Positions 53,706 to 59,558 of a stretch of DNA of 64,000 nucleotides are shown piece by piece; positions within the stretch are counted from its first letter, which is position 1, and every line of letters begins with the position of its first letter. A model generated the notes under the pieces. The model had not been told where the DNA came from. It saw only the letters and a program-made list of their open reading frames with translations, and did not search any database. The stretch comes from Streptomyces sp. RPT161 (lineage in GTDB: Bacteria; Actinomycetota; Actinomycetes; Streptomycetales; Streptomycetaceae), in contig NZ_JAPZVN010000025.1 of assembly GCF_027533845.1 (NCBI RefSeq), positions 1 through 64,000 of the forward strand. Direction: 5' to 3'. The position numbers and the translations under genes are program-made.

Positions 53706-53909
53706 TCAGCCCTCGTCCTCGCCCAGCGACAGCGCGCGTGACGGGCACAGGTCGACGGCCTCCCGCACGGTCTTGGCGTACTCCGGCCCCGGTCGCTCCG
53801 CCAGCAGCCGTACCCGGCCGTCGTCGTCGCTCTGGTCGAAGACCGCTGGCTCGGTGAGCACACACTGACCGGAGCCCACACACACTTCCCTGTCGGCCTG
53901 GATCCGCAT
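53706..53909 (-). CDS. [3Fe-4S]-type ferredoxin, P450 redox partner
   Basis: This 67-residue ferredoxin has CVGSGQC then DLCPSRAL, three cysteines where a [4Fe-4S] protein has four, with Gly in place of the second. That is the standard [3Fe-4S] form of Streptomyces P450 partners. AGGGAG lies eight bases before the ATG at 53909. It follows the P450 gene by 32 bp in one operon and should carry electrons from a ferredoxin reductase to it. Confidence 0.94.
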   Translation of the reverse strand: MRIQADREVCVGSGQCVLTEPAVFDQSDDDGRVRLLAERPGPEYAKTVREAVDLCPSRALSLGEDEG

Positions 53910-55174: not shown

Positions 55175-55214
55175 GTCTACTCCCAACCTCTTTTCGGAGG
55201 ATGTGAATGTGACT

Positions 55215-55226
55215 CTCTTTAAAGAG
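55215..55226. promoter_or_regulatory. Palindrome upstream of the P450-ferredoxin operon
   Basis: CTCTTTAAAGAG is a perfect 12-bp AT-rich palindrome, 41 bp before the P450 start, inside the promoter region. It may be an operator or the -10 region. A single half-site CGGCAA at 55274-55279 resembles the arm of the XRE-cupin operator described below. Confidence 0.4.
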
Positions 55227-55328
55227 TAGACGTTAATTGTCAGTAACCTTCAAGAATTTCTGGGAGAGGTTGTCGGCAAGACGCGGGCAGCGTTACTGGC
55301 CGCCGTGAGAGAGGGTTGCAATCGCCCA

Positions 55329-55342
55329 TGCCGTTTCGGCAA
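55329..55342. promoter_or_regulatory. XRE-cupin operator, copy 1 (own gene)
   Basis: TGCCGTTTCGGCAA lies 10 bp before the regulator start, overlapping the ribosome-binding region. Its 13-bp core TGCCG-TTT-CGGCA is an inverted repeat. The same sequence, as TTGCCG-TTT-CGGCAA, recurs at 57105-57119 before the flavoprotein gene. Recurrence of a 14-bp match at both ends of a convergent pair strongly suggests one shared regulator, most simply the XRE-cupin protein. Confidence 0.75.
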
Positions 55343-55352
55343 GCTGCCAGGT

Positions 55353-55940
55353 ATGGACGATCTCACCGATGTGCTGGCGGCCGTGGGCCCGCGGCTGCGA
55401 GAACTGCGCCGACAGCACAGCATGACCCTGGCAGACCTCGCGGAGGCGACCGGCATCTCGGAGAGCACCCTGTCCCGGCTGGAGAGCGGTGGCCGCCGCC
55501 CCAACCTGGAACTGCTGCTCCCACTGGCCCGCGCCTACGGTGTGCCGCTGGACGAGCTCGTCGGAGCGCCGCACACCGGTGACCCGCGGGTGCATCTACG
55601 CCCTGTCCGGCGCAACGGGGTGACGTTCGTGCCGCTGACCCGGCGCGCCGGAGGACTGCAGGCGCACAAGATGGTGATCCCGCCCAGGCGCGGGGACGAC
55701 GACCCCGACCTGAAGACACACGAGGGGTACGAGTGGCTGTACGTCCTCAACGGCAGACTGCGGCTGCTGCTCGGGCAGCACGACCTGATCCTCAAGCCGG
55801 GTGAGGTCGCGGAGTTCGACACACATCTGCCGCACTGGATGGGGGCCGCGGACGACGAACCGGTGGAACTGCTCGTCCTGTTCGGCCAGCAGGGCGAACG
55901 CGCTCACCTGCGTGCCCGTCCGGCCTCACCCCGTCAGTAG
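55353..55940 (+). CDS. XRE-family regulator with C-terminal cupin domain
   Basis: This 195-residue protein has an N-terminal helix-turn-helix (LRELRRQHSMTLADLAEATG, then SESTLSRLESGGRRP, about 14-65) and a cupin sensor domain (about 100-190; THEGYEWLYVLNGRLRLLL, LKPGEVAEFDTHLPHWM). Cupin residues His and Glu near HEGYE and DTHLPHW could bind a metal or ligand. It diverges from the P450 operon and converges on the flavoprotein gene. An operator sits directly before its start. Confidence 0.92.
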   Translation: MDDLTDVLAAVGPRLRELRRQHSMTLADLAEATGISESTLSRLESGGRRPNLELLLPLARAYGVPLDELVGAPHTGDPRVHLRPVRRNGVTFVPLTRRAGGLQAHKMVIPPRRGDDDPDLKTHEGYEWLYVLNGRLRLLLGQHDLILKPGEVAEFDTHLPHWMGAADDEPVELLVLFGQQGERAHLRARPASPRQ

Positions 55941-55979
55941 GCACACCTCATGGCGGGCTTCGTGATCCCGCATCGAGGG

Positions 55980-57062
55980 TCACCGCCGCGCGCGGTCGGC
56001 TGAGCGCAGCAAGGTGTCGAGACCGTGTCGGCGCTCGCCCAGAACCCGCTCACAGACGGCGGCCTCGCTCGCCGGGCTGAAGGCGTCGGTGAGTTCGCCC
56101 CGCGGGACGGCCCTGCGCCGGGCCACCGCGTCATCGGTGTCAGCGGTCACCAGATCCGCGTTGATCGCCACCGCGGCCTGCACCCCGGCGCCCGCCGCGG
56201 CCGGTACGCCGGCCATCAGGTCGGTGATGTTGCCGGCGACCCACACCCCGGCGGCGGCGGTCCGGCCAGTCGCGTCCGACTCCACGTACGCCCCCACGCC
56301 CATGGGGTGTTCGACCGCCGTCACGCCCAGACCGGACAGGACCTCACTGCGGGCCACGAAGCGCGGGGCCACCACCAGAGCCCGCGCCGGAACCCGTCGC
56401 CCCGAGGACAGCCGTACGCCAGCGAGTTGATCGTCTCGGACCTCCAGACCGGTGACCTCGCCATCGACCACGCTGATCCCGCGGGCGGCCAACCGCTCCC
56501 ACTCCTCCTCGCTCGGGTCCTCCGCGGTGTGGATGAAGTAGGTCACCTGGGACGACCACTGCCGGAACAACAGCGCCTGATGCATCGAGGTCGGGCCGCC
56601 GGCCAGCACGCCGATCGGCACATCCCGTACCTCCCAACCGTGGCAGTACGGGCAGTGCAGCACGTCGCGCCCCCACCGTTCCCGCACCCTGGGCACCTCC
56701 GGTAGTTGGTCCACCAGCCCCGTCGTCACCAGCAAACGGCGTGCGCTGAAGCTGTCCCCGCTCGCGGTCTCGACGACGAAGCAGTCATCCGCCCGCCGGG
56801 CGGCCACGGCCCGGCCGGACACGATCCGTCCGCCGTACCCGGTGATCTCCTCCCGTCCCGCCCGCAGGAGTTCCAGTGGCGGCACGCCATCCCGGGAGAG
56901 CAGCCCGTGCGCCGCGGACGCGGGCGCGTTGCGCGGTTCACCGGCATCGACGACCAGTACGGAGCGACGGGCCCGCGCCAGCGTCAGCGCCCCCGACAGG
57001 CCGGCGACGCCTCCGCCGACGACCACGACATCCCACTCAGCGGCATTCTTCTGTGCAGTCAT
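55980..57062 (-). CDS. Thioredoxin-reductase-like FAD/NAD(P) oxidoreductase
   Basis: This 360-residue flavoprotein has an N-terminal FAD loop VVVVGGGVAGLSGALTLARA, the redox-active CPYC (137-140) in VLHCPYCHGWEV, a second nucleotide loop GVLAGG, and the C-terminal FAD motif GVWVAGNITD. The layout is that of thioredoxin reductases, but low similarity to TrxB-type ends suggests the group acting on natural-product dithiols or unknown partners. The frame is open much further upstream; the ATG at 57062 is chosen from the Rossmann start. A XRE-cupin operator lies 43 bp upstream, so it is probably that regulator's target. Confidence 0.9.
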   Translation of the reverse strand: MTAQKNAAEWDVVVVGGGVAGLSGALTLARARRSVLVVDAGEPRNAPASAAHGLLSRDGVPPLELLRAGREEITGYGGRIVSGRAVAARRADDCFVVETASGDSFSARRLLVTTGLVDQLPEVPRVRERWGRDVLHCPYCHGWEVRDVPIGVLAGGPTSMHQALLFRQWSSQVTYFIHTAEDPSEEEWERLAARGISVVDGEVTGLEVRDDQLAGVRLSSGRRVPARALVVAPRFVARSEVLSGLGVTAVEHPMGVGAYVESDATGRTAAAGVWVAGNITDLMAGVPAAAGAGVQAAVAINADLVTADTDDAVARRRAVPRGELTDAFSPASEAAVCERVLGERRHGLDTLLRSADRARR

Positions 57063-57104
57063 GTGTGCACCATGGAACGCCAGCAGCCGGAATCGCAAGG
57101 TTCC

Positions 57105-57119
57105 TTGCCGTTTCGGCAA
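57105..57119. promoter_or_regulatory. XRE-cupin operator, copy 2 (flavoprotein gene)
   Basis: TTGCCG-TTT-CGGCAA is a perfect 15-bp inverted repeat, 43 bp upstream of the flavoprotein start, in a position to block its promoter. It matches 14 bases of copy 1 at 55329-55342. Confidence 0.75.
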
Positions 57120-59463: not shown

Positions 59464-59475
59464 CTCTCATGAGAG
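59464..59475. promoter_or_regulatory. TetR-type operator between cupin and TetR genes
   Basis: CTCTCATGAGAG is a perfect 12-bp palindrome with TAC to the left and AGTAGG to the right, 25 bp from the cupin start and 84 bp from the TetR start. It is the obvious site for the TetR protein. Binding is inferred. Confidence 0.55.
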
Positions 59476-59558
59476 TAGGTTGCTGGTCGATTCCGATGCA
59501 AGCGTCCTCTCGCCTTGGGGGGAGTGCCCAGTCGAAGACCTGACAGGAGGGTGGATCG

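Follow-up and report, generated by a model that had tools for sequence, protein, structure and literature searches.

A 15-bp palindrome located upstream of a gene for an XRE-cupin regulator of Streptomyces sp. RPT161 is very probably, on sequence evidence, the operator of a repressor encoded by that gene. The DNA analyzed (here, the window) is a stretch of 64,000 nucleotides, positions 1 to 64,000 of contig NZ_JAPZVN010000025.1 (contig C58 of genome G000 in our numbering). Fourteen identical bases, TGCCGTTTCGGCAA, are found at 55329-55342, in front of the regulator gene, and at 57106-57119, in front of a convergent gene encoding a dithiol flavoprotein, the 15th base of the palindrome differing between the two sites. 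Both positions had been proposed in an initial annotation of the window and were confirmed, and the definition of the operator by this palindrome and one XRE-cupin regulator was borne out by the placement of the sites and their conservation in relatives. Taken as a whole, the reading developed below, in which the XRE-cupin protein would repress its own gene through this operator and control a scattered detoxification regulon, has in our estimate a probability of about 75%.

Conservation of the operator upstream of the regulator gene

Related loci were the best 80 of at least 434 confirmed relatives, with 67 to 83% identity in the best segment; some of these loci end early at contig ends. A site was counted if it matched TTGC[CT][GA]N3[CT][GA]GCAA with at most one mismatch within 150 nt upstream of the regulator gene. 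The operator is conserved at this position in 72 of the 79 usable loci, as compared to 8 of 1518 control windows; the raw count was 73 of 80, and locus L092 was removed as an artefact, the start of its regulator gene lying outside the locus. The gap between the operator and the start codon is mostly 9 to 10 nt.

The logo was built from 64 dereplicated regions, loci L041, L048, L050, L068, L092, and L095 providing no primary operator. In these regions, the bases GCAA at positions -9 to -6, 21 bp from the GCAA of the right half of the palindrome, are conserved at 95, 95, 96, and 84%, and a T at column +18 is conserved at 95%. Both this half-site GCAA and the T lie outside the columns used for the alignment. 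The sequence CAAnCT is presumably the -10 element of the regulator promoter. In the window, TTGCAA, a spacer of 18 bp, CAAGCT, and the ATG follow one another, so that the operator covers the presumed core promoter (Table 1). A palindromic operator at the regulator's own promoter is thus predicted by conservation.

Flavoprotein and methyltransferase genes are frequent neighbors of the regulator gene. Among the 80 loci, a homologue of the flavoprotein was detected in 40, a methyltransferase (at least 75 bits) in 31, and both in 15. Other neighbors included a major facilitator superfamily (MFS) protein (at least 60% identity; 5 loci), a flavin oxidoreductase (at least 55%; 6 loci), and a Na/H exchanger (6 loci). 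Six Microbispora loci (L048, L057, L061, L075, L076, and L085) unexpectedly harbor a divergent gene for a TrkA-C protein together with a Na/H exchanger gene.

Table 1. Positions of the sites and genes discussed in the text. Plain coordinates refer to the window; C129 and C96 are other contigs of the same genome.
Feature	Position	Strand	Remarks
Regulator operator ATGCCGTTTCGGCAA	55328-55342	.	Ends 10 nt 5' of the regulator ATG (55353); 21.4 bits, in-sample
Flavoprotein operator TTGCCGTTTCGGCAA	57105-57119	.	42 nt 5' of the flavoprotein ATG (57062, minus strand); 24.2 bits
TTGCAA half-site, also -35-like	55316-55321	+	In register, 21 bp from the regulator palindrome
Presumed -10 element CAAGCT	55340-55345	+	Overlaps the operator; 18-bp spacer to 55316-55321
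Half-site TTGC	57095-57098	-	On the gene side, at a distance of exactly 21 bp from the palindrome of the flavoprotein gene
XRE-cupin regulator, 195 aa, no cysteine	55353-55940	+	HTH_3 + Cupin_2
HlmI/DepH-type dithiol flavoprotein (CPYCHGWE)	55980-57062	-	Pyr_redox_2; closest PDB chain 4NTD, E = 2.4e-74
S-adenosylmethionine (SAM) methyltransferase, 212 aa	C129:34704-35339		Operator in front, at C129:34580
Soluble epoxide hydrolase	C96:38606-39658		Operator in front, at C96:39690
Cytochrome P450	53942-55174	-	PF00067; regulon membership not supported
Ferredoxin	53706-53909	-	Fer4_19/Fer4_13; regulon membership not supported
Different 15-bp palindrome CTCTTTAAAGAGTAG, P450 promoter region	55215-55229	.	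Shared in the genome only with 59464-59478

Occurrence of the operator in front of unlinked genes

The regulator (E ≤ 1e-45) is encoded by 74 of 81 genomes of the family (116 matches), including G003, G004, and G049, which harbor only a regulator type with 47 to 53% identity. The flavoprotein (E ≤ 1e-45) was found in 58 of the 81 genomes (65 matches) and the methyltransferase (E ≤ 1e-30) in 52 (69 matches). A gene was considered to be linked if located within 3 kb of a regulator match; by this definition, 37 of the 116 regulator matches are linked to the flavoprotein, 32 to the methyltransferase, 13 to both, and 60 to neither. The flavoprotein or the methyltransferase is present in 67 of the 74 regulator-bearing genomes versus 2 of the 7 others.

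Sites were scored with a weight matrix derived from the 64 regulator operators of the relatives, the window's own regulator site being among those rows. Operators scoring at least 12 bits are present in front of 25 of 34 unlinked methyltransferase genes and 14 of 28 unlinked flavoprotein genes, as compared to 0.23% of shuffled regions. Three of the 37 unlinked methyltransferase genes, located downstream of a flavoprotein gene, were left out of this count, and two short flavoprotein regions (69 and 265 nt) were scored as misses. The sequence TTGCCGAGGTGGCAA recurs away from regulon genes in at least nine family genomes, perhaps as a conserved coding stretch; G008, G032, G042, G046, G050, G058, G062, G070, and G074 are among those listed.

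The epoxide hydrolase was first spotted through 18 hand-picked palindromes (eight epoxide hydrolases by eye and two more by coordinates, numbers that imply no frequency) and was then tested separately. The 91 matches to this enzyme comprised 54 orthologues; two partial matches and 21 of the 35 paralogues were left out. Fifteen orthologues, from 14 genomes, adjoin a sister XRE-cupin regulator with 48 to 55% identity to ours. The operator precedes 35 of the 39 other orthologues at both the 12- and the 14-bit thresholds. It was found in front of none of 14 paralogues, which were hand-picked, mostly among the highest-ranking ones, and include one region of only 160 nt; shuffled regions gave 0.26 and 0.19% at the two thresholds. 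In G057, which lacks the regulator, the epoxide hydrolase orthologue has no operator (4.9 bits). For the sister regulators located beside an epoxide hydrolase (L276 to L282), six of the seven intergenic regions scored contain a site of at least 12 bits.

The half-site is also found at these targets. At a distance of exactly 21 bp from the palindrome, toward the gene, T[TC]GC is present in 13 of the 15 flavoprotein sites (the window's included) and in 17 of the 35 epoxide hydrolase sites, and it occurs 0 to 1 times at the ten other offsets. For the 40 methyltransferase and flavoprotein sites combined, the bases at this distance are T in 39, T in 33, and G in 40, the fourth being C or T in 39.

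Predicted target enzymes

The dithiol flavoprotein is a likely target of the regulator, in keeping with the initial annotation. Its operator has the highest score in the window. The closest PDB chain, 4NTD, is listed as a thioredoxin reductase; we take it to be HlmI. It is followed by DepH (6e-53), 3FBS (an unnamed oxidoreductase; 1.4e-52), 4FK1 (a putative thioredoxin reductase; 3e-38), and GliT (5.6e-19), the remaining chains named thioredoxin reductase beginning at 1.6e-16. The CPYCHGWE motif aligns with CPYCHGYE of 4NTD, and the protein is closest in sequence to the HlmI/DepH/GliT group, with the CxxC-HG(W/Y)E pattern. It falls short of the curated cut-off of TRX_reduct for thioredoxin reductases (63.3 versus 343.45 bits). 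HlmI, DepH, and GliT are described as characterized dithiol oxidases sharing a CXXC motif (PMC11317636). No second close copy of the flavoprotein was found in the genome, the next match being 29% identical. HlmI is encoded in the holomycin cluster (PMC3826145), whereas no nonribosomal peptide synthetase or polyketide synthase domain was detected in the seven neighbor proteins scanned here (50.6 to 62.9 kb).

Two further predicted targets are encoded elsewhere in the genome. The methyltransferase of contig C129 matches Methyltransf_25 (3.5e-18), TPMT (6.7e-8), and TehB (2.2e-6). The thiol methyltransferase 9H0D (6.6e-7) is among its 71 matches, of which the better ones have other functions. The epoxide hydrolase of contig C96 matches the solved structure 6UNW (E = 7.9e-159). 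A truncated remnant of a regulator gene (L131:2380-2595, on C129) lies divergently from the methyltransferase gene; it has kept the operator and the start codon and has lost the helix-turn-helix (HTH) portion.

The regulon might instead serve sulfur-gas or general thiol homeostasis, through methylation of hydrogen sulfide or methanethiol by an MddM1-like enzyme, rather than defense against dithiol natural products. MddM1 has 210 residues and is reported in 51% of Actinomycetota genomes (PMC12904073). Like the C129 enzyme, it is a SAM methyltransferase of about 210 residues common in Actinomycetota, and S. venezuelae was inferred by the authors of that study not to express mddM1 under the conditions tested (PMC12904073). 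The resemblance noted between the two methyltransferases is one of size and spread. However, an epoxide hydrolase and an HlmI-type enzyme do not fit the removal of sulfur gas alone. We therefore regard this alternative as possible but doubtful, and retain defense against toxins as the preferred role of the regulon. In the main text of PMC12904073, searching for regulator, XRE, and cupin gave no match.

The XRE-cupin regulator

Pfam analysis of the regulator revealed HTH_3 (7.8e-18) followed by Cupin_2 (1.6e-13), which is the XRE-cupin layout. In an alignment of 59 rows, all of which except that of the window cover 180 residues, His123 and His161 are found without exception, and Glu127 in 57. 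By comparison with the cupin motif, these residues are presumably three of the four metal ligands; the position of the presumed first ligand is occupied by Lys, Gln, Arg, or Asn. Thiol-based sensing was rejected because the regulator of the window is devoid of cysteine, as are 52 of the 59 aligned rows.

No close solved full-length relative was found in the PDB, the best match (8.4e-9) being limited to the HTH domain; 1Y9Q covers both domains, weakly. The AlphaFold model has a pLDDT of 77.8 and a pTM of 0.53. Its best fold match is the epoxidase HppE (E = 6.2e-14), and 1Y9Q ranks fifth. HppE likewise combines HTH and cupin domains and shares the H-x3-E...H pattern that we take to be its metal triad. 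In contrast to the regulator, HppE is an enzyme, and the TM-score is just 0.43 with a root mean square deviation of 16.5 over both domains, probably owing to domain orientation.

A different regulator could recognize the operator, or the XRE-cupin protein could be an activator. Paralogues are numerous, with 14 matches at E ≤ 0.001 in the genome of the window itself, and the sister regulators described above adjoin 15 of the 54 epoxide hydrolases, with sites in most of the intergenic regions scored. However, the operator mostly lies 9 to 10 nt from the start of the regulator gene and covers the presumed -10 element, as expected for a repressor, and the XRE-cupin proteins studied in Pseudomonas are described as inhibiting transcription, mostly by binding to core promoters (PMC7901475). 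Another reader or an activator is thus unlikely, and autorepression by the XRE-cupin protein is preferred. A paralogue of the regulator with 41 to 42% identity (L006 and L008) has TTGCCTnnnAGGCAA palindromes nearby, possibly reflecting a variant specificity.

Motif counts and points against the predicted regulon

Several observations weigh against the proposed regulon, beginning with the abundance of the motif. A search of the window allowing two mismatches found 6 motifs versus 4.8 expected. Sites with at most one mismatch numbered 23 in the 7.69-Mb genome, fewer than for the backwards control (44), and the looser form WTGCYRNNNYRGCAA was not enriched, with 5 forward and 6 reverse matches versus 7 and 11 for the control. 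Motif counts per genome in the family were of the same order as the control. The initial annotation had taken two copies 1.8 kb apart as evidence against chance; with the motif at chance level in the window, this argument proves little, and it was dropped, as was genome-wide enrichment. Since the counts are at or below control, copy counting cannot carry the case, and placement and conservation do.

The exact form of the palindrome occurs once in the genome, and the next-best matrix score in the window is 9.8 bits. Far from being abundant and unlinked to the regulator family, the eventuality that had been raised as a refutation, WTGCYRNNNYRGCAA is found at seven places in the genome. Three of these lie within open reading frames, and the four promoter-placed copies precede the genes for the regulator, the flavoprotein, the methyltransferase, and the epoxide hydrolase. 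The chance-level counts in the window and genome would suit a coincidentally conserved sequence devoid of function, but placement before the regulator gene and three gene families, unlinked members included, is far above that in shuffled regions and paralogue controls, making such a coincidence extremely improbable.

Other points concern the targets. Neither the flavoprotein nor the methyltransferase is encoded by 24 of the 80 named loci. No site precedes 14 of the 28 unlinked flavoprotein genes and 9 of the 34 methyltransferase genes; eight of the latter nine encode distant homologues (45 to 47% identity). One of these belongs to G013, a genome lacking the regulator, in which the absence of the site (-10.4 bits) provides weak support, the methyltransferase being of a type that is mostly site-less. 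In G070, no regulator was detected at E ≤ 1e-45, yet the flavoprotein gene has a weak site (13.8 bits). The half-site T[TC]GC is present at 21 bp in only 4 of 25 methyltransferase sites. Among 51 regulators of the E or V type with a scored operator, residue 37 of the recognition helix covaries with base 10 of the operator (E37 with C in 17 of 18, V37 with T in 31 of 33), but columns 65, 24, and 74 associate with that base equally well, so that the link may reflect ancestry. Finally, thiol or dithiol toxins are suggested as substrates by the family resemblance of the enzymes.

The P450 and ferredoxin genes

The initial annotation had combined the P450, the ferredoxin, and the flavoprotein into one local redox module under the cupin sensor. 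The flavoprotein was retained; the P450 and ferredoxin were not, and the additional predicted targets lie elsewhere in the genome. Several features argue for the module: the P450 gene is divergent from the regulator gene and lies at a distance of 153 bases from the operator, it occupies the position held by flavoprotein, methyltransferase, or MFS genes in many relatives, and the palindrome and half-site are oriented toward it as toward the genes at other sites. However, the 80 related loci, covered over as much as 4 kb in either direction, revealed one weak P450 homologue (24% identity) and no ferredoxin. The half-site TCGGCAA reported near the P450-ferredoxin promoter does exist, at 55273-55279; the window contains 14 copies of it, against 6.6 expected, and no full operator starts within 55175-55310 (best score, -15.4 bits). 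The P450 promoter region also has a palindrome of its own, CTCTNNNNAGAGTAG, found just twice in the 7.69-Mb genome, at 55215 and at 59464, the latter in the interval separating a cupin gene from a TetR gene. The two genes were therefore rejected as regulon members, and a single local module appears quite improbable. Since the only other copy of CTCTNNNNAGAGTAG is adjacent to a TetR gene, control of the P450 by TetR is likelier; dual control, including by the operator, is possible, since the operator and half-site face the P450 gene.

Proposed mechanism and comparison with known systems

The conservation of the operator, its placement, its occurrence at unlinked genes, and its co-occurrence with the regulator are observations; binding, the sign of regulation, the inducer, and the enzyme substrates are inferred. 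A dimer of the regulator would bind TTGCYGnnnYRGCAA and make a second contact at the TTGY/GCAA half-site located 21 bp, or two helical turns, away. With its site over the presumed core promoter of its own gene, the regulator would repress itself; in trans, it would repress the genes for the HlmI-type dithiol flavoprotein, the C129 methyltransferase, and the C96 epoxide hydrolase and, in other species, genes for MFS efflux proteins or flavin oxidoreductases. The His-Glu-His metal triad of the cupin domain may bind a small molecule or a metal, and the repressor would be released when thiol/dithiol or epoxide toxins appear.

The system resembles ErfA, PsdR, and PauR of Pseudomonas, described as combining HTH and cupin domains with palindromic operators, autoregulation (PauR), and small metabolic regulons (PMC7901475). 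For the most part, and with PauR as the exception, those repressors act locally and have one or two direct targets (PMC7901475), whereas scattered detoxification genes are predicted here. Also unlike the Pseudomonas systems, the operator consists of a 15-bp palindrome and a half-site at 21 bp. The role proposed for the flavoprotein is that of DnoP, a member of the DepH group that provides resistance to disulfide toxins in P. aeruginosa, a non-producer, and whose induction at low zinc runs through a cascade given there as not yet known (PMC11317636). In contrast to DnoP, a candidate repressor can be named here, and a methyltransferase and an epoxide hydrolase join the flavoprotein.

HlmI oxidizes reduced holomycin, and an hlmI mutant is reported to accumulate S-methylated intermediates (PMC3826145, PMC5356443). 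Plasmid pCLA1 of S. clavuligerus, a holomycin producer, encodes a regulator with 70% identity and a divergent methyltransferase (51% identity to the L033 enzyme), with an operator one mismatch off. It is conceivable, and we consider it rather unlikely, that dithiol (or epoxide) natural products bind or strip an HppE-like metal site, releasing an antidote regulon of dithiol oxidase, thiol methyltransferase, and epoxide hydrolase across the Streptomycetaceae, and that the pCLA1 methyltransferase S-methylates holomycin intermediates.

Implications

Among the papers listed in searches of open-licence PubMed Central, none describes the regulator, operator, or regulon by title or abstract start. PMC12565409 reports 223 XRE motif clusters; TTGCC/GGCAA is absent from its text, and the palindrome may be among the motifs of its figures or supplement. 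The regulator is widespread in Streptomyces-like bacteria; XRE-cupin repressors are a known kind, and this one and its widely conserved trans-regulon are apparently undescribed. A defined operator and a predicted regulon can thus be assigned to a regulator present in most genomes of the family. If the proposal is correct, three detoxification enzymes would be under the control of one repressor, the silence of an actinobacterial thiol methyltransferase gene would have a testable reason, a candidate for the S-methylation of holomycin intermediates would be named, and the promoter might be of use as a biosensor.

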